NCBI GenBank assembly: GCA_963971425.1
Contig: OZ020515.1
Span: forward strand, 12,664,291 to 12,728,290
Length of the DNA stretch: 64,000 bases
Direction of reading: 5' to 3'
Origin: Bryoerythrophyllum caledonicum
Taxonomy: Eukaryota; Streptophyta; Bryopsida; Pottiales; Pottiaceae
This document shows positions 10,912-64,000 of this stretch, piece after piece. Numbering within the stretch: the stretch's first letter is position 1; every line of letters starts with the position of its first letter. A program made the position numbers and the translations under genes. Below the pieces are notes generated by a model. The model worked only from the letters and a program-made list of their open reading frames with translations, was not told the DNA's origin and made no database searches.

Positions 10912-13549
10912 GCCACTTGTTTCAGTTCTAAAATTCTAGTCTTCGAAGATCTAGATTTTTTCGAGGTGATATTTCATCAGGAAATCCCAAGACAACTGTT
11001 CCCATATTACATCCACATGTACTAGAGTACGTTTCGATATAAAAGGCGAACATGGATGATATGTACACCAAGTCATACACGCTTTATATGACATAACTGT
11101 CATATCGTACACGTAGATTTTGTTTTAGAACATTGTATATATGATGATGTTATATGATGTCTGTACTTATAAAAATTGATATAGAATAAGTATAGAAAAG
11201 AAGATTATATACAAAAATTATGTAAAATCTATATGTATTACTTTTTGATATTGAAGTTGTATATAAATGATATATTTAAAAATCCATATAATTGTTATGT
11301 GGCAATAATGTCATACTATAAATGTATGTATTGATATAGTGCACCTAGGCCGTGGTGCATTTTTAATACTTGTATTTGATAACAAAAAATGATCTATTCT
11401 CCACAAAATTAGGAATTACTTCAAATCCTCTTGTAATGGTTGCTACATCCACCACTACGTACGATATACCATGTTGCCACGAGACGTGGTGTCAAGGGCC
11501 TCTCTACATCATAATGTTTTAGCATAGACTAGCAGTTGGCGCTTGCTTTGCAACGCATTAGAATGTAGTTTTTATATCACAAAATATAAAAAAGAAAGGT
11601 AACAACAATCTACATAAAATATAAATATGTCTTTGAAACCTAATATGCATGAGTTTTAATAATGTAATAGAATAGAATAGAAAAAAATAAATTAGATTTT
11701 AGATTTTTTGCATTTTAACATGGAATTTCAAAAATGTTATGAACGTCAAATTTGTAATCAAGAGTTTCAAATTTATTTTGGATAAGCACAAATTGCCACA
11801 CACAAATGCAAATTTCACACACCCACAAACTCAACTTGTAATTACAATCTCAATTTCACATATCCACAAACTCAATTTGCAATTACAATCTCAAAACTTG
11901 CAATCTCACCTCAAAACTTGTAATTTCAATCTCCACAACTCGAATATGCAATTTTGCAACTCCAACTTTGTATGCCAACCTCCAAGATCACAACTCCAAC
12001 TTCACAACTTTTTTACTTCAAGTTTACAACTCATAATTTACAATTCAATCTTTTAGAGTTCAATTAAAAAGATATTTGAACGTCAAATTTGTAATCAAGA
12101 GCACGAATTGCAACACACAAATGCAAATTTGTCACACCCAAAAACTCAAGCTAATGCTTTGCAAGGCATGATTCCAACTACTTTAATGTAGTTTTTAATA
12201 TTACAAACTATATTTTAAAAAAGTAACATGATTCACTGTGCGGTTGGCTGCGCAATTAACTGCGCGGTTGACTGCACCATTCCTATAGTTCACCGCACGG
12301 TTGATTGCGCGATTGATCGCTGCGTGGTTCACTGCGCGGATTATGATTTTAGTAGTATGATTAGTTTGTTACCGATCTACGAGTTTTAGGACGTGCGGCG
12401 TCGCACCGCATTCATCCGTGGATGATTTCCATCCACTTAGGGTTGTGTATGTGTATGAATAGCGCCGCATACGTCCTTGACTTGACGTCTTTATCATGTC
12501 AAGCTTTGTGAGTGACTTAGAGAGTGTTTAGTGATTACTTTTGCTTGTAAGTGATTGTTTATCATCGGTAAAGGTTCCGCATTCATTTATACTACTTGCA
12601 CTCCTTGATTCTTCCTTTGCAGAGTGTGAGACACTTGACTACTCTTATGATTTACTAGTTATTCACTTGACAAAAATCCTCTCACATTCTTCTTTTTAGT
12701 TCTAGAATTTGAACTTGGGTGAGTTTAGTAAAAACTTAGGTGCTTAGATTGATGTTGTAGAGTGCCTCAAAATGGAGCCAACGCAACAAATGGCGCCCAA
12801 ATCAGATAATTTTTGAGCAAGATGTGAGCGGCACAAGAATTGGAAGAAGAAGAATAGCTATTGGAACTGATTTTGCAATTTTTTATTCACTACGCCGTTA
12901 TCATCCACATAAAAATTTCACCCGCGATCAATTTTCATCATTTCTTGCAAATTCATCTACTGTGGGTAGTTTTTATCCACTGTGATTAAAACTGTAATAT
13001 GGGCAGAATTCATTAACTGTAAGTTAATATCTCGCAAAATATATATATATATTTTAATACAACTTTAGATTTCAGCTCTCCATAGGGATTTTTACCTATT
13101 GAGAAGGAAAAATTTTAGTGGAATTTTTTTTTTTCAAGAACCACATTTTTGAGTGTTATCAAAAAGAATAAGTGTCTAAACTTTGGAGGTATGTAACTAG
13201 GGCAATTTAACTCATTTTTGAGTGAAACTTGTGCCTGCATTATCTCCAGAGAGGACCCGATTTTGATTTCTGGAATCTTGTGCGGTACCCCTCCGTGTTG
13301 CGGGCTTGTTGCTAGTGTTTACCGGTGGCCCAATTTCCGTGCTGTGCCAAATTGTGATAGGGTATCATAGGGGTGAAGCCAGGTTCCTGGCTAGCAAGAC
13401 CTTTTTATGTGAGGGGTTGTGTTTGGACTTGTGCTAGCCGGAGGTGATGATTGGTGAATTACAAAGTTTGGTGGTTTTCTAGGTGCATGTTGCTTGTTCG
13501 TATTTTTTCCTTTTGATAGTACCCGTAGATAGATTCCGTGCTGGTTTTT
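10912..13549. repeat. AT-rich repeat region 5' of the retrotransposon
   Basis: No gene recognised. A block starting GAACGTCAAATTTGTAATC at about 11741 recurs at about 12078 (spacing near 338 bp), both followed by CA-rich text such as ACACACAAATGCAAATTT. A second pair sharing GCTTTGCAA and AATGTAGTTTTTA lies at about 11535-11605 and 12155-12225. At 12235-12345 there is a run of loosely repeated TGCGCGGTTGACTGC motifs. From about 12440 onward the sequence could include the 5' LTR and leader of the downstream element. Two weak primer-binding-like sites occur, TGGCGCCCAAATCAG at about 12793 and TAGGGTATCATAGG at about 13358. I could not match a 3' LTR to this region. Confidence 0.5.
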
Positions 13550-14599
13550 ATTTATGGTGAGTACCCGTAGTCGGTATCACTGCTCCCCTCAGCAGACCCG
13601 CCCAGAGAGTGCTTCTACCGCACACATTGGGCCAGGGTCGGATACCAACGAGGCTTTTGAATGTGTTTCGGCGTTGGATATCAATCGTTGGCTTTAGGTT
13701 TGGGACGTGGGCATGTTTGACGACATGGAAGACGATCTCCGTCATATTGTACGAGATAGGTTCTCAAGACAAGGCTGAGGATATCTCTCTATCCGATTGA
13801 CGGCTCTGATTCCAAACTTGGATGAACAAGAAGCGTCAGCGGAGGCCATCGTTTAAGGACTGGTATGCGTTTGAGCACTTACCCCAACATTTCGAGTTGC
13901 ACGCCCTTCAGACATACGGAAGGTGGGCTACGCAACACGAGGCAAAGGTACGCGGCACGTCCCATTTAGGAGTACTGGCTCCGGCGTGAGGAGTTGGTTA
14001 CTACGCTCAAGGAGAGTGCGGTTGCCGAACTCTCGACTTCCAACAAGGAGCTCAAGGTGGAAGTGGGTTTTTTCGGTGGGAACTCCAAAGGCAAGGGTGT
14101 TGCCATTGTAGGCGAACGGGTTGACATGGGGGCCATGTCCCATTTGGCAGTAGCCGTGCGTGTGGCATTGATGGCGGATGGCAATTTGCCAACCTTTGAT
14201 CCTCTAGCACAGTTCATGGCACATTTGGAGGTGGAGTACTAGGGCTTCAGGTGTGGTCACATGTAGCGCATCTAGGATTTTTGTCGGCAGAAGGAAAATA
14301 CCTCTCGCACTATGTATACCCGATTGGTACAATTATGAGCAGAGGCCGGTGATGGGTTTACGGAGCGCCAGCACATGAAGGTCTTCAACTTCAAGGTAGA
14401 TAAGCGGATGGTGGAGTTGAGGAGCCCGCATCTTCTTTTTTGGTATCACGGGAACTCCACTTTGGCGCAGACGTTTGTTGAGGTACATGCGTTTGATAGA
14501 GCGTTCAGCGTAGGCGAGGCCATAGATTTGGTCACGTCATTGTTGGAGGCTCCCAAGCCCAAGAAACTTCCTACAGCTACTGGTAGCTTGGCGGAGGCA

Positions 14600-14830
14600 C
14601 AATTTGAAAAGATTGTGCATTTGTTGGGCTTGTGGAAAGGCGGGTCACATCAATGGATACCTCAATTGCTCCAAGAAAGAAGGGGCAAGTATGGTGAAGG
14701 CAAAGCCTAAGATCGAGGCGGCCAAGCCTGTAGAGAAGGTAGGAGGCAAGGAGATGAAGACCATGACATATTCTCATTGTGGCAAGGTTGGCCACAATGA
14801 TAAGAATTGCTATTTTTTTCACGCGGAGAA
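14600..14830 (+). pseudogene. Retrotransposon gag zinc-knuckle region
   Basis: Two CCHC-like knuckles are visible. The first reads CWACGKAGHINGYLNC (about 14616-14672) with an enlarged H-to-C spacing. The second reads YSHCGKVGHNDKNC (about 14768-14812), with the first cysteine changed to Tyr. A basic, lysine-rich linker separates them, in a different reading frame. This is the nucleic-acid-binding end of a gag protein. Sequence from about 13800 to 14550 upstream is probably the rest of gag, broken by stops. Confidence 0.65.
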
Positions 14831-15119
14831 GCGCCCAGGGTCTTCGACTGTTGAATCGGATGTGGTGAAGGCACTTGAAGCCAAACTCGAGGAGCTGAAG
14901 ACACAAATGAGCGCGTTGGCCTCTTTGGAACAAGTGACAAACACATGATCTTTGGTGAGAGGTCAGGGCTCATCTTCAGCCCTAGATTGTTACTTGAATG
15001 ACACTTAGAGGAGGTGGTGGCAGGAGTTACCACTCGTGCTCAGTCTGCCGCACAAGCGGTGGCATCTTCACCCTTTGTGCCGGTTACTTGTGGCCGTCCA
15101 CGCCACATGGGTTTGCCGG

Positions 15120-15548
15120 ACACCTAAAGGGCACGGAGAAGGCCATGGGTTATACCCAACATCCGTTGCAGTTGATGTTTGGCATGGAATATGGTCCAAT
15201 ATTCTCATACGTATCTCTACAAGGCGTTGTGGTTGGTGCCACAAACTATGACATTCAGGTGGTTCAGCAAGCGCTTTATCTACTCGATTTTTGGGTGGAA
15301 AACTCGATTAGGCTTGGGTGGTCTACCAATGATGGTAGAAATGAGCATATTCCGGTTGTCTTTGCACCTAGTGCGGTGACTTCCAAGGCAAATGCCAACA
15401 TTGGGTGTAGTGCCTTGGCATCCAATTTGCCAAATTGTTCTATGCTTTTGGAGGAGACATATGCTTTTATGTCGGAGGTAGCGGAATCACGTGAGCACAA
15501 ATTAGTGGAGATCCCTGCACGTCATTGCAAGGTTCAAGGTCCTCCTTA
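15120..15548 (+). pseudogene. Putative retropepsin (protease) region of the retrotransposon
   Basis: The open frame contains LQLMFGMEYGPI, then NYDIQVVQQALYLLDF, resembling the C-terminal half of Ty3-type aspartic proteases (NYD.LLGQQ.LYPLGF pattern). Its position between gag and the methyltransferase supports this. The catalytic DSG/DTG triad is not visible in this frame, so the assignment rests on context and this partial motif. Confidence 0.4.
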
Positions 15549-15654
15549 AGGGACCCAATTGAAGCTCACACGTTGCAGTTAAGAGATTGTCGACACTCTT
15601 GATGTTCCACAGTTCTCAATGGACTTTTCCACTCTGTTGGTAATTTGTACTATT

Positions 15655-16560
15655 CAGTGGCAACCATTGGATGAGAGTAATACCCTTGTGGAGCTATTTG
15701 CTGGTATGGGAACGGGGCTTGCGGTTGTGTTGGAGGCTGGGCTGAAGGTATGTCGGTACATCGACGTGGATAGTGGCTCTGTAGCCAACCGTGCTGCTCA
15801 CCATCACATTCAACATCTTTTGGCGTTGTATCCGAAGCAGTTACCACCTTTTGCCATTCGGGGATGTTTTGGCAAACTCCTACAAGATGTGACATTGAAC
15901 AGTGAGGATAATCTGCACCGGTTAGGTCACGTGGACTTAGTGATTGCCGGTTGGCCTTGCCAAGGCCATTCACGGGCGGGCAGTACAGACGGGTTTTGGA
16001 TGATCCGGGGTCGGTGCTCTTTGCGGATTTGCATAGGTTCCTTCAGTGGTGGATTCCCCACCAATCGACGGCACCAGGGTACATTTTTTGGAATGTACCT
16101 CCATTGGGGATTTGAACCAACATGGCATCATCGGCAACACTCACCTTTGGACTTGCTCAAGTGCAACGGCCCATGCGCCGTGAGGTCGATGACATCTTGG
16201 ACGACCACCGTGTTTTCATGGAGGTTACCAAGGATGATGAGCCACCATTGGCGGTTGTGAACTGCGTTGGTTTCACTCGGGGGGCATTTCCCACGTTGAT
16301 GTGCTACTCGGGGTCTTTTGCCTTCATGACACGCAGACCAAGCATGGTTTGAGATTCTACTTCCTAAACTTACAATGAGCCTTTTGCCGATGCGAGGGAG
16401 CGGGCAATGGGCTTTTTGACAAGCACCACCGCGGCACCAAATCTCTTTGAGGGCCAACGTCGTTATTTGTTGGGTCAAGCCATTGACCTAAACACTCTTG
16501 TTTGGGTTTGTAGCCTTCGTTTTGCCGTTCAACGCCGTTTGAGTGACCATCGACACGTGT
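15655..16560 (+). pseudogene. DNA (cytosine-5) methyltransferase domain inside the retrotransposon
   Basis: About 300 residues spread over several frames show the C5-methylase motif series. Motif I (AdoMet binding) is LVELFAGMGTGLAVVLEAG at about 15685-15740. Motif IV with the nucleophile is VIAGWPCQGHS, with the Cys codon at 15958-15960. Motif VI is IFWNVPPLG at about 16084-16110, where the usual Glu of ENV is Trp. A QRPMRRE stretch at about 16155-16180 is reminiscent of motif VIII (QxRxR). Motifs IX-X are GFLTSTTAAP and RRYLLGQAIDLNTLVW at about 16410-16506. The domain lies between protease-like sequence and RT with no gap, so it appears to be an integral part of pol and not a separate host gene. 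Frameshifts after motif IV and the ENV change mean this copy is inactive. Confidence 0.8.
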
Positions 16561-17079
16561 TGGGGATAGATTCCGATAGTCAAGGGGTAGCGATGCCACA
16601 TCTCACAGAGATTGAGAATGCGGAACTGCTTTTTTGTTTGAAGAGGCATGCAGCTGGGGAGCTTCGTGCTCAACGTGCCTTTGCAACCTTGGCCAAGGAC
16701 TTTGGTTGAGAGGATGCCCATGATATCTTTTCTTGATTTTAGCACCTCCATATGGGATTTTCTGTGGATCCCGTGAGTGAGGAGTCTAGGGGCATGAATG
16801 CCCTTTCTGGTACAAAATAGCAATCACCAGTTGTGCCGGTACATGGTGAGTCTTCTACGGTGGAGATGGAGAACACGAAGTTTGATGATGGCCTTTGGAT
16901 TTAGGGCCACATCTTACCGGTGCTGAGGCACGAAGAGTACGAGCATTTATACGTTTGCATTGCAGCCGTTTTGCCTTTAGACTCCATGATTTGGAGGGCT
17001 ATAAAGGCAAGGCCATTCACATTCAGTTGGAAGATGACCAACCAATCTTTCGATGATTATACAAGCTCAGTCTTTCAAA

Positions 17080-17700
17080 GAAAGTGGAGGTCCAGATTTG
17101 TTGTCAGGAGTTATTGGCCGTGAGCTTGATTGAGCTCTCCAAGGACGAGTTCGCTTGTGCTACGGTTATGCCATCGAAGAAGGATATCTTTGGTAACTAC
17201 ACAGAGAAGCGGATGTGTGGAGATTATTGGCTGCTCAATCGTAAGACCAAGTTAGCTTGGTATTACATGCCGACGCCAAAGGAGTTATTTGATTTGGTGG
17301 GCCACACTAGAGTATTTAGTACTCTAGATTTGTGGTCTAGTTACCACCAGTTACCATTGATGGTGGATGACTGAGTGAAGAGTACATTCTGGAGAGTTGA
17401 TCAAGATGGGAGAGATCAACTTTATCATTGAACGTTTCTCCCATTTGGCCTCAAGAACGCACCGACTGAGTTTTCGAGGGTGATGGACCAGGTGTTGACC
17501 GGTTTATTGTTGCCCGATGCTACATTGGTGATGTTATCATTTTTAGTAGGAGCCCACACGAGCATGTGAGGCATCTTTAGTCGGTGTTCAAGAGGTTACG
17601 ATAGTGGAGATTGTGCTTGCACCATGGCAAGTGCAAGTTTTTCTATGATCAATTTCCATATTTGGAGCATATGATTGTTCCGGGGGATCTTGGCCTATAA
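17080..17700 (+). pseudogene. Reverse transcriptase domain of the retrotransposon
   Basis: Typical Ty3 RT text: RMCGDYWLLNRKTK, YMPTPKELFDLV, VFSTLDLWSSYHQLPL and FLPFGLKNAPTEFSRVMDQVL. In the catalytic YxDD box the sequence at 17521-17532 reads YIGD, so one catalytic aspartate is lost. A stop at about 17372 and frameshifts before and after the box break the frame. Confidence 0.85.
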
Positions 17701-17744
17701 CAAGCCAAGATGGATATGTTGCAAAAGAATCTTGCCCCAACTGA

Positions 17745-18340
17745 ATCACGTGTCACTGCTTCAAGCTTTTCTTGGCTTGACATATTACTATCGCCCATTT
17801 GTCACGAACTTTAGTTTGATTGCTAAGCCGTTGACTATCCTTATGGACAAGGATCAGCCATGGACTTGAGGATGGGAACAACAGCTGGCATTTGCTACTT
17901 TGAAGATGAAGCTCAGTTCAGTGCCTGTGCTGCGGCATCTGTATGGTACACAACCCTTTCGGTTGCACACATGATGGAGTGTTGTGGGATTGGAGGTTGT
18001 GTTGCCTCAAAAGGATGATGAGGGACGAGAGTACGTTGTGGTGTTTGCTTCTAGAAGCAACAACAACACAAAGTCCAACTATTTGTCCTATGAAGGGAAG
18101 CTTTGGCCACGGTTTGGGCCATAGCCCATTTTAGGCCCTATTTGTATGGACAACGTTTTACGTTGGTGACCGACCATCAGCCTTTGAAGTGGTTCATGGA
18201 GTCTGACAAGCTTACTGAAAAGCTCGCCATGTGGGCTTTGTTTCTTTAGAATTATGACCTTGAGGTTGTACATCGGGTTGACATCATGAACTTGGATGCG
18301 GATGGTCTATCTTGCAATCCGAGTCCTTCGGAGGAGGATT
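17745..18340 (+). pseudogene. RNase H domain of the retrotransposon
   Basis: It begins with the RT connection segment LQAFLGLTYYYRPFVTNFSL and continues through broken frames with NNNTKSNYLSYEGK, a TLVTDHQPLKW equivalent at about 18155-18195 and the HRVDIMNLDADGLS end at about 18270-18310. This matches the RNase H of Ty3-type elements. At least three in-frame stops or shifts are present. Confidence 0.75.
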
Positions 18341-18689
18341 TGACTAGTGCTAGGTGGCATGGGGACTGTGACAGGGAGTCAGTCTCGGGGTGGCATGAAG
18401 CGGCTTACCTCATGTTGATGTCTGGCTCTGCATCGACAATGCTTGATTTGGCAACGGATGAGAAACTGGATAGGACCCAAGTTGTTAGCAATGTGTGGGA
18501 AGACGGTCCAGTCTTGGACAAGCTACAACATGGGACACTTCCCCCAACTCTATCTGCTATGGATCATGATAGAGTTGGGCACCAAGTAGCAAGGTTCCGT
18601 TGGGAGAATGGACTTCTTATTTTTGTGAGGCCAGATGGGACTAGGTACATAGTGCTGAGGCGAAATCAAAGGGCTTCGTTAGTACGGTA

Positions 18690-19630
18690 AGTACACGAAG
18701 ACCTAGGACATTTTGGTGTGCGACGGACTCATTCAATGTTGCACAGTCAGTACTGGTGGACCAACATGTATCAGCAGGTTACCACGTATGTTTCTCGGTG
18801 TGAAGTATGTGATCGAGTTAGATCCAGCTTCAACACCTTGTCACCACTACTGCAGCCTTTGCTCATTATGGCGCTAGGATACAGGTGGTCTTTGGACTTT
18901 GTTGGTCCACTTGTCGTGACTCCACGCGGAGCTAAATATGTCTTGGTGAATCGTGATGGTGGAGCATTTCAGCAAGTGGATTTGAGCTCGTGGCTCTTCC
19001 GTAGAACTCTTTGGAGTTGGCGGCCATGGCATTTCTTGACCGGGTGTTGGCTCATTTTGGAGCCCTAGTTGAGGTTTTGACTGACTTGTGCATGATTTCC
19101 TTTGGGCTTTTGAAGCTTTGTGTACCAAGGCTTTGATTGACCATCGTACCACTTCTCGGGATCTCCCGGAAGGAGACGGTTTGGCGGAGCGTCTGCTACA
19201 GACTGTGAAGCGAAGCCTAAAGAAGTATGGATTATTTTAGGGTGGCCATTGTGATTAGGATCTAATGATACCATGGATCGCCATGGGGTATCGGTTTAGC
19301 CGGGAGGCTTTACTGGCTACTTTCAGTTTATATCAGTTGTGGTATGGGTGGGAGCCAATTTTACCGAGTTTCGTTCGGAAAAAGTTGGCTCCAGTTGTTG
19401 ATTTGGACAATGCAGAGGTGTAGGCCCAATGTCTACGGAATCGAGCGGAATTCTTCAAGCGGACCATGCCTATGGCAATGGAGAACTTGTCCATTGCTCA
19501 GCACTGTGACACCTTACGGTACACTCGTATTTGTAGTGGTGCCTACCGACCTTAACTGCAAGGTTTATCTACGGGGGATTATGTTTATCTGTAGCGTGAG
19601 ATGCCTACGACGTTGGACGTTAAGGCATGG
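18690..19630 (+). pseudogene. Integrase domain of the retrotransposon
   Basis: The HHCC zinc-binding region is HEDLGHFGVRRTHSML followed by CEVCDRV (about 18693-18815). The DDE core starts at WSLDFVGPLVVTP (about 18890-18925) and continues, frame-broken, to DHRTTSRDLPEGDGLAERL (about 19138-19190), where plant Ty3 integrases carry the HPEADGLAER motif. A C-terminal segment (KLAPVVDLDNAEV, RAEFFKRTMPMAME) follows to about 19630. Confidence 0.8.
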
Positions 19631-19779
19631 CGCACTATTCTCTATGTGAAGGATGTGTTGCCCAGTGGCATCTTGTTGCTGGAAGGCAAGGATGGCTGGG
19701 AGTGTTGGGAGCACTCTAAGAATTGTGCTCCATGCCATTTATCCATTGATGACTCCGTTCATCCGGAGTTGGCGTTTGT

Positions 19780-19935
19780 GCCGGATGGCCTTCCGTGTTT
19801 TGTGTGGTGAGAAGAAGGGCGCGGCTACCATGTTTTTTTTGTGGCCATTGCAAGCGCGATTGGCATATGGCTTGCTTGACGTCGCCTCTTTCTACTTTAC
19901 CATCCGGAGATTGGACTTATTGTCCTTGTTGGAGG
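19780..19935 (+). pseudogene. PHD-like zinc finger at the end of the polyprotein
   Basis: Read across two 1-base frame changes, the sequence gives LCGEKKGAATMFFL, then CGHCKRDWHMACL, then GDWTYCPCW. This fits the spacing of a PHD finger (Cys pairs, then His-x2-Cys within WHMAC, then a final Cys pair). PHD fingers bind histone tails, so in a Ty3 integrase it could act like the chromodomain of chromoviruses in target-site choice. That role is an inference. Confidence 0.5.
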
Positions 19936-19960
19936 TCTTTGAGCCACGTTTCACTTGATG

Positions 19961-20379
19961 GAACGGCTTGAATTCCTTGTGGACTTCTCACTATGCGGTG
20001 TGTTGCCATCTAGTTGGAATTCCTCGTTTTAATTCAAGGATAGGCAACGTGAAGATTGACCAAGGAATTGGCAACAAAGTTGCAGAAGGCAATTAAAGAT
20101 GGGGCTCACATTGCACCCGGCCTACCCTCTCTTTGTTACTTCTCTATATGCTTATTGATTCGACAACGAGCAATCCCTTCAATTGGATGCGTACAGTTGT
20201 TGCAGCAACATCACTGTGGCGTTTAGTCTTATTTGTGTTGTTTGGTCCTAGCTAGATAGAGGGTCTCTTTATTTGCTAGGGGGGGCACTTAAGGGTGTAC
20301 TATGTATTTTTATTTTAGTGTATGTTTTTTTATTTATTTGATGTTGGTTGGGACTCTCGATCTATTGTGATTATCAATC
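19961..20379. other. 3' flank of the retrotransposon
   Basis: Non-coding sequence that includes the candidate polypurine tract at about 20275-20288. If that is real, a 3' LTR should begin just after it, but no matching 5' copy was found by eye. Confidence 0.35.
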
Positions 20380-21060
20380 TTTCTTTACTCGACAATGTTC
20401 CTCTTTCCATCAAAGAAGTGGATACTCCAAAACATCATGGATCTCTACAAAATGATATAAATGTAAAAGAGCTAATTATTTTTCAATGCTCTCATTCTTC
20501 GTGGTTGTACATTGACATTTAAAAGACAGTCGCACTTGCCCATACATCTCCACTTGGCCATTTGCAACACTTTGGTCCACTTCATAAATAATAGAATTGT
20601 TGCACTTCTTCCAATGAAATAGTGGAGATAATTAAATCAACATTGTTTCACCTCCATATTCTGATTCTATATTTGGAGGTAGACCAAGAGTGCTGTATAT
20701 TTGCATAGCCAACATCACAAACAAATAGTGTAACAATTTGATTATCACTACATCTTATGTCATAGTGTATATAATAAGCCTTCTATCTTCAATTATGTAT
20801 TTGAGAACTAAACACATATCCGCACTCAATGAAACCCATGTAGTGTTATAAATGCATCAAGAGGACAAATGAAATCCACTCCAATCTCTGGTTAGGCCCT
20901 CAAAATTTGTTGAGCTCTTGATAATTCCAAATTTTCTACCTCACTTATCGCAATTGAGTTATCAACAATATTGAATTGGCTTCTTTAAGTTCCTTGGAAA
21001 CCACTCATTATACATAAGCCATACTCCGTTGCCTGCATGCATTTCATGTAACCAAAGTGT
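20380..21060 (-). mobile_element. Possible degenerate integrase fragment
   Basis: On minus, IGVDFICPL (about 20885-20860) resembles the start of a Ty3 integrase core, and VANGQVEM (about 20565-20545) resembles its HPQANGQVE motif. Stops interrupt every frame. This would be a second, older retrotransposon in the opposite orientation. The evidence is weak. Confidence 0.3.
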
Positions 21061-40319: not shown

Positions 40320-42312
40320 TTACAACTTCGACTTCGCGTACACCTCAGCTTGACCATAACTGTCGCCCTTGAACTGAGTCTCAGTCACACCTGATCACGC
40401 AACAATAATAACTCATGTCAATACTCGTGTCGAACAGGAAAGAAATGAGCAGCAAGGACGGTGGGAATGATGCAAGATTTTATCAAAACATGAATGAAGC
40501 TGCAATCTGTGCACATTGAACATATCAAACTTCCACTCACCGTAACCCATGGCGGCCGTGGAGGACACCCCGCCCGTCACGGTCTTCAGCAGCGTGTCGT
40601 AGTAGTTCGCGCCCGACCACGTCTGGTGCGCCAGCGTCTCCACCCCGTGCGTCCGCTCTTGCCGCTGCACGTCCTGCACGTACGCCAGCATCCCGCGCTG
40701 CGCGAAGTCGCGCGCGAACGTGTCCACCACCAGCGCGTTCGAGTGGAACCCGGCCAGCGTGATGAACTGCCACACGAACCCCATCCGCGCCAGGTCCGGG
40801 ATGTAGCTCTGCAACTGTGCGTCCGTCATACCCGCCGCGTCCCAGTTGAACGACGGAGACTGGTTGTACGCCAACATTATCTCCGGATGCACCGCCTTCA
40901 CGCCCTCGGCGAACTCGCGCGCCTCGTCGATGTTCGGCTTCGCCGTCTCCATCCACAGCAGGTCGCAGTGCGGCGCGAACGCGATCCCCCTAGCGATACA
41001 CGCGCGGATGCCGCCGTCGAACCGGTAGTACCCCTCGCGCGTCCGCGGCAGGTCCCAGTCGAAGAACACGTCCGACGCACCCACCTTCTCCGCCAGCCGC
41101 CGCGCTTCCACCATCGACAGCCCGTCCACCTTCCCCATGAACTCGCGCACCCGCGACTCCTTCTCGCCCGGCGACACGCCGTTCAGCGCCCGGATCTTGT
41201 CCGCCACAGCGTCCTTGAACAGCCGCACGTTCGCCTCCGCCAGCCACTTGTCCTCCACGGCCTGCAGCGCCGCGCCAGTCAGTCCCGCCTCCACGGCCTC
41301 GTGCATGGCCTGCACCAGCGAGAAGTCCCGCACCGCCGGGCTGGTGGCGCCCAGGATGAACGAGTGGTCGCGTGGGTCGATGTTGGACTGGATCAGCGTC
41401 GCGGCGCCCGAGTCCGTCCGCGCCACCAGCAGCTGCTCCACGCCCATGATGTCGAACTGCAGCCGCGCCGCGATCAGGCGGTTGATGTGCTCCGACGTCG
41501 CCACCAGCACCTTGCCGCCCATGTGGCCGCACTTCTTCGTCACGGACGCCTGGTCCTCCATGTGGATCCCGGCGGCGCCGCGCTCCACGAACATCTTGGC
41601 CAGCTTCACGGTGGCGGTGGTGCCGCCGAACCCGGTGTCGGCATCGGCGATGAGGGGCCGGAGGAAATCCACGTACGGCGTGCGCAGGCGCTCTTCGCGG
41701 GACAAGCTGAGCCGGGCCTCACGCTGCTTGCGGTCGTGGAACTGCTGCGCCATGAACAGGTGCTCCACCTTGTTGGGCACGGTGTCCATCGGGTAGTCCG
41801 CGAGGTCGGGCCCGGGCTCGTTGCTGGTGGCGGCCGTGGACGCGCACTGCCATCCGGAGACGTAGATGGTGTCGAGGTACTTGGCCATCTGCGCGACCTG
41901 GACGGGGTCCAACGCGCCGAACGTGCGCGAGCACGTGCGGTTGGCCTGGTGCGCCTTGAGGGTGTACCACAGCTTCTTAGCCTGGTCACTGGACGCGTAG
42001 TGCTGGGGCAGCGTGCCGCGCAGACGGCACACCTCGCGCGCCGAGTAGGACCGCTTGGTCAGCCTCCAGCGGTCGCTCTGCCACCAGTGCTCCACCTCCG
42101 CGACCTGCCTCTCGAACAGGGCATCCTCCTCCGCCACGAACTGCACACACCGCAACAATTTAATCAGTCAGCACTGCAGTTATCAACTCTACCCAATCTG
42201 TCAACTGGCTTGAACACTCTCAACTCAAAATTCCACCGTGATTGTCTAGATCGGAAAGGGCGAATATTAAAAAACGCACTTGAGCAGCAGCTTCCTGGTT
42301 GTAGACGGCCAT
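40320..42312 (-). CDS. ICL: Isocitrate lyase, peroxisomal (copy 1)
   Basis: Three exons (42312-42280, 42140-40541, 40390-40320) join in phase to 567 residues, near the usual 570-580. The enzyme cleaves isocitrate to succinate and glyoxylate, the key step of the glyoxylate cycle that turns stored fat into sugar. The catalytic KKCGH motif is in [55 protein letters not shown] and [11 protein letters not shown] are conserved. The C-terminus is SKL, a classic PTS1 peroxisome signal, where many plant ICLs end in SRM or ARM. Exon 2 is strongly GC-rich compared with its AT-rich introns and flanks. It is nearly identical to exon 2 of the copy at 45109-47196. Confidence 0.95.
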
Positions 42313-45108: not shown

Positions 45109-47196
45109 TTACAACTTAGACTTGGCGTAAGCCTCTCCACCCGAGTAACTGTCACCTTTGAACTGGGTCTCAGTCACACCTAAAATGATCACGACATTCT
45201 CAATGTCAGCAAAGGAGCAAACAAAACGATAACACACTTCAATTCTACCAAATTCGAACCTGACGAACTTTTAGGACCAAAAACAAACCCCCGGTAATAA
45301 ACACATGATAATGCAATATTGCACAGCCAAGCCGTGCTCATTGCGCATGTCTATATTCACTCACGTACCGTGACCCATGGCGGCCGTGGAGGACACCCCG
45401 CCCGTCACGGTCTTCAGCAGCGTGTCGTAGTAGTTCGCGCCCGACCACGTCTGGTGCGCCAGCGTCTCCACCCCGTGCGTCCGCTCCTGCCGCTGCACGT
45501 CCTGCACGTACGCCAGCATCCCGCGCTGCGCGAAGTCGCGCGCGAACGTGTCCACCACCAGCGCGTTCGAGTGGAACCCGGCCAGCGTGATGAACTGCCA
45601 CACGAACCCCATCCGCGCCAGGTCCGGGATGTAGCTCTGCAACTGTGCGTCCGTCATACCCGCCGCGTCCCAGTTGAACGACGGAGACTGGTTGTACGCC
45701 AACATTATCTCCGGATGCACCGCCTTCACGCCCTCGGCGAACTCGCGCGCCTCGTCGATGTTCGGCTTCGCCGTCTCCATCCACAGCAGGTCGCAGTGCG
45801 GCGCGAACGCGATCCCCCTAGCGATGCACGCGCGGATGCCGCCGTCGAACCGGTAGTACCCCTCGCGCGTCCGCGGCAGGTCCCAGTCGAAGAACACATC
45901 CGACGCACCCACCTTCTCCGCCAGCCGCCGCGCTTCCACCATCGACAGCCCGTCCACCTTCCCCATGAACTCGCGCACCCGCGACTCCTTCTCGCCCGGC
46001 GACACGCCGTTCAGCGCCCGGATCTTGTCCGCCACAGCGTCCTTGAACAGCCGCACGTTCGCCTCCGCCAGCCACTTGTCCTCCACGGCCTGCAGCGCCG
46101 CGCCAGACAGCCCCGCCTCCACGGCCTCGTGCATGGCCTGCACCAGCGCGAAGTCCCGCACCGCCGGGCTGGTGGCGCCCAGGATGAACGAGTGGTCGCG
46201 TGGGTCGATGTTGGACTGGATCAGCGTCGCGGCGCCCGAGTCCGTCCGCGCCACCAGCAGCTGCTCCACGCCCATGATGTCGAACTGCAGCCGCGCCGCG
46301 ATCAGGCGGTTGATGTGCTCCGACGTCGCCACCAGCACCTTGCCGCCCATGTGGCCGCACTTCTTCGTCACGGACGCCTGGTCCTCCATGTGGATCCCGG
46401 CGGCGACGCGCTCCACGAACATCTTGGCCAGCTTCACGGTGGCGGTGGTGCCGCCGAACCCGGTGTCGGCATCGGCGATGAGGGGCCGGAGGAAATCCAC
46501 GTACGGCGTGCGCAGGCGCTCTTCGCGGGACAAGCTGAGCCGGGCCTCACGCTGCTTGCGGTCGTGGAACTGCTGCGCCATGAACAGGTGCTCCACCTTG
46601 TTGGGCACGGTGTCCATCGGGTAGTCCGCGAGGTCGGGCCCGGGCTCGTTGCTGGTGGCGGCCGTGGACGCGCACTGCCATCCGGAGACGTAGATGGTGT
46701 CGAGGTACTTGGCCATCTGCGCGACCTGGACGGGGTCCAGCGCGCCGAACGTGCGCGAGCACGTGCGGTTGGCGTGGTGCGCCTAGAGGATGTGCCACAG
46801 CTTCTTGGCCTGGTCACTGGACGCGTAGTGCTGGGGCAGCGTGCCGCGCAGACGGCACACCTCGCGCGCCGAGTAGGACCGCTTGGTCAGCCTCCAGCGG
46901 TCGCTCTGCCACCAGTGCTCCACCTCCGCGACCTGCCTCTCGAACAGGGCATCCTCCTCCGCCACGAACTGTGCACGCAACACAAGACCATTGATTCATT
47001 CTAGTTGCCGGCGACCGGGAATAGTAAGTGACTGAACAACCACGATCGATCACTAGCCTCGTTTAATTGCAACTGTAGACTTGAGATGACCGATCCAAGA
47101 ATCAAAAGCTCTATCTTGTGAATGATGACCCAGAGATCATATTTAAGAGTAGTAGATGAAACTCACTTGCGCAGCATCCTTGTTGTAGAGTGCCAT
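45109..47196 (-). pseudogene. ICL: Isocitrate lyase, copy 2, with premature stop
   Basis: Same three-exon structure as copy 1 (47196-47167, 46968-45369, 45179-45109), and the exon 2 lengths are both exactly 1,600 nt. Exon 1 encodes MALYNKDAAQ versus [11 protein letters not shown]. Exon 3 encodes a tail differing at several residues but still ending in AKSKL. Exon 2 differs by only about a dozen bases from copy 1 by eye. A TAG at 46783-46785 replaces a Lys codon at about residue 72, before the catalytic region, and should abolish function unless it is a sequencing error. The KKCGH motif and the rest of the frame remain open, so the damage looks recent. One nearby change also turns a conserved Gly to Val ([11 protein letters not shown]). 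Confidence 0.9.
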
Positions 47197-58357: not shown

Positions 58358-60802
58358 TTGGGGTCAGTGGATGGGTGCGGACACGACATCCCACGCTCGG
58401 ACTTACCCGAGGTACGCCACATCTTAATTGCATGGGGCCATTTTTCTGGCCCTCTTATTTTAGGGGGTCCATAAGCTTTTTTTGGAATTGTTTTGGACAC
58501 ATTTGAGGCCCACGGCTATTGTTTATCCTAGAAGTTCTTCCCTTGCTATAAATAGGGCCCCATCCCAAAACAAAATAGGGGCCAGGTTTGGCTCCACCAC
58601 CTTGTGGCCCCACGCGGTAAGTTCGAGTGTGGCGGATATCCTGTCAAATCACAGTGGATGGACGGACGTGGACAAGGTCATCTCCTCCCTATTCCCTTGC
58701 CCGTTCCTGCAGCCCCATTCTCCTACCCATTCCCCTAGCTTCATTCAAACTCTAAACCCTAAATACCACCTGTAAACCCTAACTCCTAAACCCTGAACCC
58801 TAATACCCTCCCCAGGGTTCTCTAAACCCTAAAACTAGGTTACAGGGGGAACAAGGAGGGAAATGGTCCTCGTCCACCACCGTCCATCCACTGACCCTGG
58901 TCTCTGATGCGGCATAGCGGCAAGTTGGGATTCGGGGCAGTGTTTTGTACGATTTGGTGGTATTTTATCAACTTCGCCATCTAGGAATCATTCACGCCAA
59001 CAGACTCCACAATCATGATCGCAGTCAAGTGTGCATCACCAAAGCTTCTGGTCAGCATCGAGCAACGTGCGAGCACGAGGTCCGAAAGTCATACGCCATT
59101 AAGATGAGGGCCCCCCCTCCGGGTAACGCTCGAACGACCACGAAACACTCGTGCCAAGACTCCACCAACATTAGGCCCACGCACATGCGCAGATTTGGCT
59201 GGAGACGCGGGCTCACAAAGATGGGGTCTGTTCACCAGAACAAGCTCTGTTGAGAGTGCGCCTCAACCTCAGCCAAAGTCAGGCAGGCACAAAAAAAATG
59301 AGCCGCCTCTCTTAGCCTCAGCCACCCACTTTTGTTTTACCCTTATCAACCCTCTGACACTTAAAATTAGAGTAAGTAAAATGCACAAGTCACATAGAAA
59401 AGCACTATAAAAGAAGGCAGAGAGATGTAGTAGTCCTCTCTCTCCTTGGCGTTTTTTTTTACTCAACACGGCGTACGCCGGCGCACATGCAAGCGGCGCG
59501 CTCCATGGCGTACGCCGGCTGACTTTCAAATACCCCAAACCCCTTCACACCGAGCGGTGTGAACGGGGTCGGAGCAGCTGATCCAGGCGCCGCCGCGTGG
59601 AACTGCGCCGGCGACGCCGGCTCAGCTCCTGACGCATGTGCGTCAGCCTATTATCGCCGTCAAGTGTGCAGCATCCAGCTTCTGTCGTTTTGGAGACATC
59701 CTTCTCCGCCGAAGTCTGTGAAATAACCCCGAAGCTCTCATTATCTCGATAGTGCAGCAGCAGGTCCGAGTTACTTGTTATACGAGGCTCCACTCTCTGT
59801 CACATGCATCTCTTTCGCCGCACGCCGCACGCTGCTCCTCCAGGATCTCCATTCTGCAACCCCGCGCACGCCGAACTTGCTGTCCGTTTCGGGAACCTCA
59901 GCTGGCAACCGGCCTCTGCATCCGCAAGCTTGGATTGTCTTCCTCCGTCGTGTGAAGAGTGTGCCATCGTAATTTCTACAGGTATGTATGCAGCTCAACT
60001 CAAGTCCGCCTTGCATCTCCCTCGGTGTACATAACTTGTGCACCTAAGTTCGGTTCTGGTCGGTGTCCTCGGTGGAGAGTCCTCAAACGTGACATGTATT
60101 CAATCCCAGTTTGTTTGCAGACCCTGTCGCTCTTAAGAGCCTGTTGTTTTCCTAAATGGTTGGAAATTTCGAGCTGAAACTAGAGATGATCTAGTTGAAA
60201 CTTCTGGAGATTACGAGAAGAGAGAGAGGTCGTTGGAATGCATGTTCAGTGAGTTTGTTCTGTGAAGAGGCTAAACCCTTTAACGCCGCGCTGGCTATGG
60301 CGCGACCATCAATCTACGATCGGAGTAGATGATGCTCTCCAGAGTCTCCTACTCTCATAGATGCTGGTCGCGCCATAGCCAGCCCTGCGTAGAAGGGTAA
60401 ATAAACACGCTGGTTTAATCTGTTATCCAGTTGAGGGATATCATTCTGGCAACTGTACATTTGACAACGTGTGCGTTATCATGTGGCGCTTTGGCATCCT
60501 GGACACCCCAAATATGTGATTGGGTATCAGTTGAAGGTCAACTTGTGGAGTCAAAAACTGGGACATGTGGATGTCGATCTGCGGATGCCTTGCACGCTCA
60601 CATATGTAACTTACATACATGTGTTCCTAGGGTTTTGTTCTCTCAACAGGAGCGGATCAAAGTGAGGTGCTCTACATTGTGAAGGAGAGTGGTGCTGAAC
60701 TTTTCTTGGAGCGGTTTCTTACTGCTCTTCTTATATGTGGTGGACTGCATCTAGCTTATATCATCATCGGAGTGAGTATTATCGAGGAATATTTCATCAG
60801 CA
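58358..60802. other. Intergenic, telomere-like tract and GC-rich palindromes
   Basis: At about 58745-58835 degenerate CCCTAAA units recur (interstitial telomere-like). At about 59475-59620 GGCGTACGCCGGC occurs twice in a GC-rich patch, and CTGACGCA/TGCGTCAG form a short palindrome near 59628. An inverted repeat at 60290-60383 is listed separately. The 5' leader of the ankyrin gene probably lies in the last few hundred bases. Confidence 0.5.
60290..60383. repeat. Perfect 19-bp inverted repeat (hairpin)
   Basis: GCTGGCTATGGCGCGACCA at 60290-60308 and its exact complement at 60365-60383 flank a 56-nt loop. It could be a small foldback element or a structured RNA, about 420 bp upstream of the ankyrin gene start. 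Confidence 0.85.
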
Positions 60803-63800
60803 ATGGCAAGTGAAAATCCTGAGCATGCTCCTGCAGGAGGTGTCTCTACGGAAGCCTCAGAGTCTACCTCAGAGTGGTTTGAGCATTTGAAACCTCGAGG
60901 CAGCTGCTTGCGACTATATTCCCTTCTAGTGAAGAAACGCGATTTGATTCATGAGCTGGGACCGAAAGGCATCACTGCTCTGCACAAGGGAGTGCAACAT
61001 GGATGTGTTCGCTTGGTGAAGTTCATTTTGGTGAATATGTTTGATAAAGGTTATTGTACTTGCCGGGTGTGTGGTCCTGGAGATTCACGGGTCACAAGGG
61101 GGCAGTTGCTTCGTGAGGCTTGTGAGGACGGTATCACGGCAGTGCAGATGGCGGTGGTGAGTGGGAGCCCAAAGATGGTGTTGCTTCTGGAGTGGGCTAT
61201 CGATATGAACGAGGTGGAAGTGAAACAGAAGAAGTGGACATCAAAGGGTGATGAGGTCGCTCCCTCAGAAGCCACTCGTGTGCTCATTCGAAGAGTCCAA
61301 CAGAGGTCCAAAGGAAATGCATTGTTGTTCTCCAGAGAAGAGTGGGACATGGAAGGAAAAGACATGAGGCATCTGTTTGAGGTTCGAAACAGTGAGGACT
61401 GTGATTCTTCGACACTCACAGAACTAGGCCCTCCAAATGCAGAGGAAGAAATCATGGAAGAGACGTTTTCGGAGATCGTGAATGATACTGGAAGAAATAG
61501 TTTCGTGAATGATACTGGAAGCAATAGTTTCGTGAATGATACTGGAAGCAATAGTTTCGAGGTTCCAGCCGACGTGAAAGATGATACCATTGATTGTGTG
61601 TATCACACTGGTTCTGAGGAAAGTGTCATGATTCCCAGGGTGTATGATCTCATTGAACGTATACTTGAAGACCCAGATTGTTTTGCAGTAAACAGGCAAG
61701 AGCAGATTCAAAAGTGGAAGGCCGAGTGCATGAAGGACGTAGACTTCGAATTTGTGCCAGTTGCACATGTCTTTCTACACTTTCTTTTTGGATCAGTATC
61801 GTGGTATGACTTGGGGGCGGCTGGTGTACGCGCAGTTTTTGAGAAAATCGTTCGTGCTTGCAATGAACATGACCTGAAGGAGCTAGGCAACCCTACAGAT
61901 AGTGGGTCTATGGTGGCTACTGTATTCAAGATTCTAGATCCTCGCGGCCAAACCATTCTTCATGCAGCTGTTCGCAACAATAATTTCCATGATCCATCTA
62001 GAATTTGTCAAATATTTCAGTGGATGGCGGAAATGGACGTAAATGGGATGTCTACCGGATCGGTGAAGGCGTGTATGAACTCTAAAGATGGTGCAGGTCG
62101 CACCATTCTTCACCTCATGTGCATCGATGATAATGCCCATATGGAATTGTTGTGTTCATCTTTTTTGAAGAAATCTAAGAAATGGCATACGGAAAATTTG
62201 GATAGGGATGCAAATTTGTCCCCACTTTGCCGTGAGAAATTGGTCACCCTGCAAAGGTGGTGTTTCCCTCATTATCAGGGAAGCTTTTCATTAGAACCAG
62301 TTCATTTGGCAATTCTATTTGGTTCAATATCAGTGTTCAGATTCATCTATTCAAATTTCGTAAGTACACCCGACAATATTATGAAATTGAATGCTTCTCA
62401 TATCTTGGAGCCAGAGATTGATTCAAATTATGTAAGGTGCAATGGCTTTGGGCCATTACAAGCAGCAGCATTTTTAGGCAGAGCAACAATTGTTGAAGAG
62501 ATTTTAGGGGTAAGCTCTGCTTTCAATTCACTTCAAATTCTTTGGAAATTTATGGTGTGGATTTGTATTCTTTAAATTGTCAGTGTTCTCTGCAAAAATA
62601 ACTTACAAAGCAATATGAAATATGCATCACTCAAATTAGTAATGCTGTGTGTTTTGTTGCTACAATACTTTTGATAACGATTCAATTGTGATTCATGAAT
62701 AGTATGGACTTATTTAGGGTGTATGTACTTTTCAAACAAAATTTTAGTTTTAGTTTTTACTAATTCTGTAAATGAGGACTTTGCACTTTGATTATGAATC
62801 AATTTTTATGATTTTTTCTTTCAAATGTGATGTAAATTGGGAATAAAATAGTTGATTTTTGAAATTAGATCATTTAAAGATAGATGAGATATGATTAATG
62901 AGCATTCAAGGTTTCATTCAAACCTGTAAAATAAACCCACATTGACTTAAAATATGATAAAATCTAATGCTTACATTTTTGTTGTTTCATGTTTATATTA
63001 TACATACATTATTTTGAGTATATTTAAATATTATTTAAATTTCTATGCATAGTCGATTTGTAAAAGAGAGATTCGAACTTATATATTTTTCTTTGGCGTA
63101 CAGCAACAAAAACCAAGGTTGGGCATGGGAAATGCCACCAATGTCCATTTTGAGAATGGTTATAATTTTCCAACAATTCATTGTGCTGCACTATCTGGCC
63201 AAGTTGAAGCAATCCAAAGTATCCTCAAATTTTCCATATATGACCCAAACATTCAACATGTAGGTCGCTCTTCGGAAGGGACTGCTTTACATCTTCTTTT
63301 GAAGAGAATGAACATCAGCGTCTATGTGAAGATGTTCAAGACCATAGCTCTGCTCCACGTGCTACCAAATTCGAAGTCGTATGTACGTTTGAAGGATGAG
63401 TTCTCCAAGCTTCACTTCTACTTCAAAGATGAGCCGCAGATGTTTTCAGCAAATGAAATCAGCTGCATCAACCTCCTACTTCAAGCCGGCATTGACATAT
63501 GGACTCCCCATATCAATGCAGGAGAGCGTCCTAGCCCTGGGCCCATGGCCAATGACAAGGCTAGAGAATGGTGGTACAACAAGGTGGTAACCGAAGTTGT
63601 AACTCAAAAAACAAGTATCAACAATGCTTCCAACGCAACCTCCGTCATTGCCGCATTGGTGGCCACGGCCTCCTTCATTGGACCTTTGCAACCACCGCTT
63701 GGCTTGGCAGATGATGGTTATCTACGTACTAGTGCAAGTGCGGTGCGAGTGTACTTCGTGTGCAACGGCTTATCATTCTACTTCTCCATTGCAAGTATCT

Positions 63801-64000
63801 TGATGGCGGTCTTGCCCGCAATTCCGATGCCAAAGGAGTCTCTCTACGACGAGCTCTTTAGAAGCCAAAGATGCTTGAAGACTGCTGCTTTGTTGCTACT
63901 AGTATCCATCATTTGTATACTTTCAAGTTTTACATCTGCGAGCATTGGAGTGGTATCCTCAGAGTTGCATGATAAGCAGCTTGTTGGTGCTTCTGTAGGG
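60803..64000 (+). CDS. Ankyrin-repeat protein with PGG domain (3' end off window)
   Basis: Exon 1 (60803-62511) starts MASENPEHAPAGG and joins in phase, across a 590-nt intron, to exon 2 (from about 63105), which stays open to the window end. Ankyrin-type helices are seen at KGITALHKGVQHGCVRLVKF, DGITAVQMAVVSGSPKMVLL, RGQTILHAAVRNNN, AGRTILHLMCIDDN and FPTIHCAALSGQVEAIQSIL. Near the end NNASNATSVIAALVATASFI followed by PPLG matches the PGG domain of plant ACD6/ITN1-like proteins, and at least three hydrophobic segments follow (about 63760-63960), so it is a multi-pass membrane protein. Relatives act in salt and defence signalling. A nine-residue unit (FVNDTGSNS) is repeated three times at about 61480-61560. 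A CRVCGPGD motif near residue 90 is unexplained. Confidence 0.85.

Follow-up and report, generated by a model that had tools for sequence, protein, structure and literature searches.

DNA methyltransferases of the DNMT3 class have been described in KnitGypsy-Dnmt3, a retrotransposon of the charophyte Klebsormidium nitens, and in SymbioDIRS-Dnmt3 of dinoflagellates (PMC5890265). According to the figure legends of that 2018 paper, KnitGypsy-Dnmt3 has DIRS-type repeats, the DIRS layout being A–coding region–B–A–B. According to a 2025 paper (PMC12344493), retrotransposons from 'LTR Copia and DIRS families' (LTR, long terminal repeat) harbour members of DNMT3 in streptophytes and dinoflagellates, and in 2019 land plants such as tracheophytes were stated to have no transposon-encoded DNA methylases (PMC6338049). 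Here we analyzed a stretch of 64,000 nucleotides from Bryoerythrophyllum caledonicum (Bryopsida; assembly GCA_963971425.1, contig OZ020515.1, positions 12,664,291 to 12,728,290), referred to as the window. An earlier reading of the window from its letters (the original prediction) had reported a methylase-carrying Ty3-type element and stated that C5-methylases occur in retrotransposons of some algae, which PMC5890265 bears out. Positions 11475–20394 of the window almost certainly hold one decayed, dead Ty3-type element of the KnitGypsy-Dnmt3 kind. Most transposons are victims of DNA methylation; the family found here carries the enzyme itself, together with a probable histone reader of the PHD type, and offers a natural system for asking if methylation of its own copies benefits a parasite.

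The unity of this element was most clearly seen in its relatives in public data, for which we used two reference proteins: P0001 (Gag–protease–DNMT, 1331 amino acids), standing for open reading frame (ORF) 1, and P0015 (reverse transcriptase (RT)–RNase H–integrase (INT)–PHD, 1043 amino acids), standing for ORF2. A search with the methylase only returned 14 proteins of 1252–1451 amino acids, all of which carry DNMT in ORF1. The CCHC knuckle residues and the D-x-G motif of the protease were invariant columns in their alignment; Pfam agreed with the alignment in the six proteins compared, the protease matches being mostly under the cut-off. The possibility, named with the original prediction, of a methylase inserted separately and absent from related elements is thus not what the relatives display. 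A separate search with RNase H–integrase returned 15 ORF2 proteins. PHD (PF00628) lies at the C-terminus of ten, the other five ending before that region (P0029 judged by its domain list), and the integrase PF00665 is present in 14 of the 15. The order RT–RNase H–integrase and the Ty3-like RT are those of Ty3 elements, and the best solved match of P0026 was Ty3-G Gag-Pol. The precomputed Pfam lists of the 15 proteins contained neither a tyrosine recombinase, as expected of DIRS elements, nor a chromodomain, as expected of chromoviruses.

A methylase-domain profile built from the 14 ORF1 relatives matched five of the 15 ORF2 relatives. P0023, which begins inside DNMT, has DNMT, RT, RNase H, INT and PHD all in one protein, with DNMT preceding RT and no stop between them. 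In P0025 and P0026, DNMT lies between RNase H and integrase; P0027 and P0028 begin inside or just before DNMT and continue into integrase. P0025–P0027 form one clade in the methylase tree (support 1.0). DNMT and PHD are therefore regular parts of the element that travel together, and DNMT has two positions: the protease/RT interval, followed by a stop (window type) or by none (P0023), and the RNase H/integrase interval. P0013 and P0016 each lie on an NCBI contig of 8955 bases, presumably one and the same. As a separate observation, ECQ replaces PCQ in catalytic motif IV of P0025, P0026 and P0027, where DNMT is next to integrase, and ECQ is also found in P0093 and P0102 of Closterium. A DNMT of the same clade, P0030, is recorded as part of a bacterial metagenome bin (Candidatus Obscuribacterales) and is probably eukaryotic contamination.

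The window copy itself could be laid out from end to end on the plus strand. Repeat and untranslated-region matches to another copy place the whole element at 11475–20394 in the order A–coding–B; repeat A contains an insertion, and the 3' A–B is missing. It is flanked by the target-site duplication ATGT (11471–11474 and 20395–20398; the chance of a 4-base match is 1 in 256). Repeat A (11475–12670) matches another copy in two pieces, A 1–57 at 11475–11532 (76%) and A 40–362 at 12345–12670 (81%), on either side of an insertion of ≈ 810 bp (11533–12344); short direct repeats lie at 11785–12149 inside this insertion. ORF1 (13554–16817; seven tblastn pieces with P0001) contains Gag, CCHC knuckles, a protease remnant and DNMT, and is broken by frameshifts and stops. 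The DNMT3-type C5-methyltransferase occupies 15658–16540, limits estimated from tblastn; motifs I, IV and IX–X are readable and the frame is broken after motif IV. The stop UAG at 16818–16820, followed by CAA UCA (a leaky-stop context), separates ORF1 from ORF2 (16889–19953; four tblastn pieces with P0015, and Pfam), which comprises RT, RNase H, integrase, a C-terminal domain and, at the C-terminus of integrase, a degraded PHD finger (19825–19953; residues 984–1038 of P0015, a weak Pfam match). A 3' untranslated region, 87% identical to another copy, ends in repeat B (19957–20394).

Pfam, on the same strand, detected DNA_methylase (PF00145) at 15583–16257 (E 4.8e-5, 23.4 bits; cut-off 22), RVT_1, RT_RNaseH_2 and RT_RNaseH at 16.9–18.3 kb (best E 7e-17) and Integrase_H2C2 at 18691–19065 (E 3e-15). 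Pfam and tblastn with P0001 and P0015 hence agree with the original prediction of a Ty3-type element carrying C5-methylase, RT, RNase H and integrase in one orientation; the profile search for a C5-methylase that it proposed found PF00145, of type DNMT3 by profile. Its span of 13550–19960 corresponds to the coding part, the element with repeats A and B being longer. Its description 'without gaps' does not hold: residues 506–728 of P0001, ≈ 220 codons including the protease active site, are missing at a junction between 15121 and 15133. The C-terminal PHD-like array that it reported is a canonical PHD in other copies and is broken in the window copy, where the Pfam match (19753–19968) is weak (E 0.0043, 17.5 bits, under the cut-off of 24). 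The break at 15121–15133 was seen when the window was compared with each of 20 copies fetched from the same genome, and all 20 align in one piece over residues 640–850 of P0001 (one with an internal stop), so the protease active site was lost in the window copy.

The ends of the element were examined closely in five of these copies. The order was A (362 bp)–coding–B (107 bp)–GC–A–B. B was present at both places in four of the five, the last B being partial in the other, and 4-bp target duplications were exact in three of the four copies with a complete end, with one mismatch in the fourth. The repeats are therefore split, A–coding–B–A–B, and differ from the two direct full-length LTRs of a Ty3/Gypsy element. 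No ordinary LTR pair was found flanking the window copy because the repeats are split and the 3' A–B has been lost. We infer recombination between the two B copies as a simple route for this loss.

The genome (437 Mb) contains a large family of such elements. The methylase query gave at least 198 matches including the window (2018 candidates at first look, 150 of them scored). With the PHD query, all 150 scored candidates of 1549 matched, 15 of them in open frames of 1042–1047 codons. On one contig, among the matches listed, nine of ten for DNMT are followed by one for PHD on the same strand, ≈ 4.3 kb downstream (paired by hand). The 20 fetched copies are not a random sample, having been picked mainly because their DNMT frames are long and open. 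Thirteen have paired full A repeats with 97.0–99.7% identity, and a fourteenth (L055) has paired A with 97.7% identity over 221 bases. Both ORFs are open in three of the 20, in line with the intact relatives expected in the original prediction. The family appears to have been recently active. A second family, ≈ 70% identical to P0043/P0048, is present in the same genome; PHD with C4HC3 zinc ligands was found in all four tails read. The short 5' flanks of three of 16 copies (L037, L044 and L047) match coding sequence of a related Ty3 element and probably represent nested insertions.

We next consider the methylase. A profile of 22 diverse members matched DNMT3A/B best (8e-25), followed by DRM (1e-14), HhaI (6e-9) and then HaeIII and DNMT2; DNMT1 and CMT chains gave no match to this profile at E 0.01. 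The window methylase alone was too weak a query for a PDB search (E 0.03). Motifs I, IV, VI, VIII and IX–X are in linear, normal order, unlike in DRM. By its sequence, then, the methylase is of the DNMT3 type. Of the 20 copies, 18 could be aligned over DNMT in a single piece; in these, the motifs are retained as GWPCQG (18 of 18), FAGIGTG (16 of 18), ENVPPLG (12 of 18) and GQAI (17 of 18). The ratio of nonsynonymous to synonymous polymorphism (pN/pS) of DNMT is 0.19 (0.14–0.25) over 16 of the 20 copies and 0.185 over all 18, close to the values for RT (0.17) and INT (0.18), indicating purifying selection on DNMT.

For the methylase tree we used 65 of 102 domain pieces, the shorter ones being dropped; many source proteins are not long enough for a retroelement context to be visible. 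DNMT3A is among the deepest pieces, beside P0023, with only stretches of DNMT3A used and a long branch. A scan of viral contigs with the ORF1 alignment gave 28 loci (30–54% identity, in or beside the methylase region); we took these for C5-methylases of phage type (12 were inspected and eight served as outgroup). The phage sequences do not form one clade, and the tree does not decide between single and multiple capture. A DNMT3A stretch, used to look for the host's own DNMT3 in the same genome, matched mostly long open frames or element copies (31–37% identity), along with a few short matches (36–42% identity) that could be host exons. One further locus, L062, matches nearly the whole of PF00145 (E 2.4e-62) in a single open frame of 370 codons, unlike the elements.

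These observations led us to a proposed mode of action. Most ribosomes would halt at the UAG and produce Gag–protease–DNMT, and some would read through, adding Pol–PHD. Since the stop lies after DNMT, the methylase is on the Gag side, which would make it a Gag-level component of the particle, placed for de novo methylation of new complementary DNA (cDNA); element copies would then enter the genome already methylated. We rate methylation of the element's own cDNA by DNMT as just short of an even chance. DNMT may instead have been kept for RNA methylation, protection from host or viral nucleases, modification of the host genome or a structural role. Such options are discussed in PMC5890265, antiviral defence is suggested in PMC6338049, and together they form a serious, if tentative, alternative; the DNMT3-class similarity and the RT-like purifying selection suggest DNA-directed catalysis, without excluding them.

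Methylated copies would later decay by C-to-T change, as the window copy seems to have done. It is ≈ 82% identical to better-preserved copies, and 717 of its 1441 differences from one of them (L037) are C>T or G>A. The rates of these changes (C>T/G>A) are 0.28/0.20 at CG, 0.26/0.21 at CHG and 0.14/0.10 at CHH, so that CG and CHG sites show roughly double the frequency seen at CHH sites, the direction of mutation being assumed. This pattern fits methylation in plant-type contexts.

The PHD finger keeps all eight zinc ligands (C4HC3) in the ten ORF2 relatives that reach the C-terminus. Its best solved matches include CHD4, PHF12, PHF21A, KDM5 and UHRF1, and also DPF and KAT6 proteins; some of the closest of these read H3 not methylated at K4. 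An aromatic residue two positions before the zinc-binding His is typical of H3K4me3 readers. The element has Gly at this position instead, from which our guess is that its PHD may read unmodified H3K4. Placed at the end of integrase, it would bind an H3 tail without modifications and direct insertion to chromatin in a matching state; we give this role in guiding integration an even chance. A PHD that is simply a zinc-binding part of the integrase C-terminus, without histone binding, would be compatible with the unclear selection signal in young copies, but the canonical C4HC3 arrangement and the chromatin proteins among the best solved matches make this rather doubtful.

The sequence UAG CAA UCA was found at the ORF1/ORF2 junction of 19 of the 20 copies by a strict pattern and, as read, also in the twentieth. 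An open ORF1, a single UAG and an in-frame open ORF2 follow one another in nine of the 20. In family 2, UAG CAA CCA is present in eight of nine loci. In plants, UAG followed by CAR YYA constitutes the type I readthrough signal (PMC2754532), and ORF2 is probably made by stop-codon readthrough. Re-initiation at an ORF2 Met, with no readthrough, could draw on a Met soon after the stop in family 1, where the ORF2 alignments begin 12 bases past the stop, and on family-2 locus L070, one of three read, with a Met at codon 24. The other two lack a Met over the 39 codons that follow the stop and yet keep UAG CAA CCA, and both families retain UAG with CAR YYA; we regard re-initiation as unlikely. An ordinary Ty3 element into which DNMT and PHD were inserted separately, or beside which they lie as a host gene, has a negligible probability: the window copy is split into many frames, so that adjacency alone is no proof of unity, but the single proteins joining DNMT to the knuckles and protease in all 14 ORF1 relatives, the five domains of P0023 and the long open frames with the same domain order in the own-genome copies already refute it.

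If the two activities act together, the element would be a writer–reader pair in one readthrough polyprotein that picks chromatin without H3K4 methylation and delivers pre-methylated copies, with DNMT having moved at least once and the pair kept. Animal DNMT3A pairs with an ADD domain, and the element would re-create such a pairing through DNMT and PHD. The parasite, not the host, would then set its own epigenetic state at birth. This combined scheme is speculative, and we hold it to be improbable as it stands.

Several points weigh against the proposed mode of action. When the Gypsy DNMT of Klebsormidium was assayed in yeast, it produced no methylation, a result judged inconclusive (PMC5890265). 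The CG/CHG decay may be due to host methylases rather than the element's own, and its direction is assumed. The pN/pS of PHD among young copies is uninformative, 0.485 (0.24–1.67), so the case for PHD conservation rests on the zinc ligands in distant relatives; its ligand class was likewise judged from relatives only, the window copy being degraded. In the one copy folded, the hairpin that follows the stop is a modest one (z −1.9). Internal stops occur in RT–RNase H in eight of 16 and in INT in seven of 18 copies alignable in one piece, versus none of 18 for DNMT and none of 18 for PHD, the DNMT figure being biased by the choice of copies by DNMT frame. Taken as a whole, the best explanation is that the window copy is a dead representative of a large family of the KnitGypsy-Dnmt3 kind that was active recently and acts in the proposed way; we consider it reasonably likely.

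Elsewhere in the window, two isocitrate lyase copies (40503–42157 and 45328–46982) are 98.0% identical over 1658 bases and lie ≈ 4.8 kb apart in the same orientation; the first contains a single minus-strand open frame of 584 codons. Gene pieces with ankyrin repeats and PGG domains (60776–64000, plus strand) and ABC transporter pieces were also present, and this gene content gives the window a plant-like character. Within the window, no RNA families (at gathering level) and no tRNAs were found.

The same DNMT was found in records of the liverwort Calypogeia fissa (P0046, P0059) and of Closterium (P0093, P0102; P0102 with RT and RNase H), names being those of the source records. A Calypogeia RT–RNase H–integrase protein of the same clade (P0020) lies on a different contig from the Calypogeia DNMT records. 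The liverwort DNMT sequences call into question the broad form of the 2019 statement on land plants (PMC6338049). Together with the conserved readthrough context, the Calypogeia fissa and Closterium records suggest that this kind of element extends beyond the charophyte and the dinoflagellates described in 2018.

In comparison with known systems, the KnitGypsy-Dnmt3 kind was already described. New here are the PHD on the integrase, the DNMT on the Gag side of a leaky-context stop in both families, the second DNMT position in relatives, the 4-bp duplications, the many copies and the recent activity. We found no report of DNMT, PHD and Ty3 together in the open-access literature. Chromoviruses are Ty3 elements with a chromodomain, a histone-reading module at the integrase C-terminus; the element here has PHD in place of the chromodomain, an additional DNMT and split repeats. 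CR1/L2 LINEs (long interspersed nuclear elements) likewise carry PHD, mostly in ORF1, with a suggested role as a targeting aid, but they are non-LTR elements in which PHD is not on an integrase, and the part of PMC4120745 available to us does not mention DNMT. SymbioDIRS-Dnmt3 shares a DNMT3 in a retrotransposon, the A–coding–B–A–B repeats and a variable domain order; it uses a tyrosine recombinase (PMC5890265), whereas the present element has a DDE-type integrase and 4-bp duplications. KnitGypsy-Dnmt3 shares the Gypsy domains, an intron-free DNMT3-class methylase within the coding region of the element, the retained catalytic residues, purifying selection and DIRS-like repeats (PMC5890265). 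Its DNMT is described as part of the Pol ORF, whereas here DNMT is on the Gag–protease side of the stop; PHD goes unmentioned in the main text of that paper, though its figures may differ, whereas here PHD ends Pol. Finally, copies are fewer in K. nitens than in Symbiodinium according to the same source; here there are at least 198 DNMT matches.

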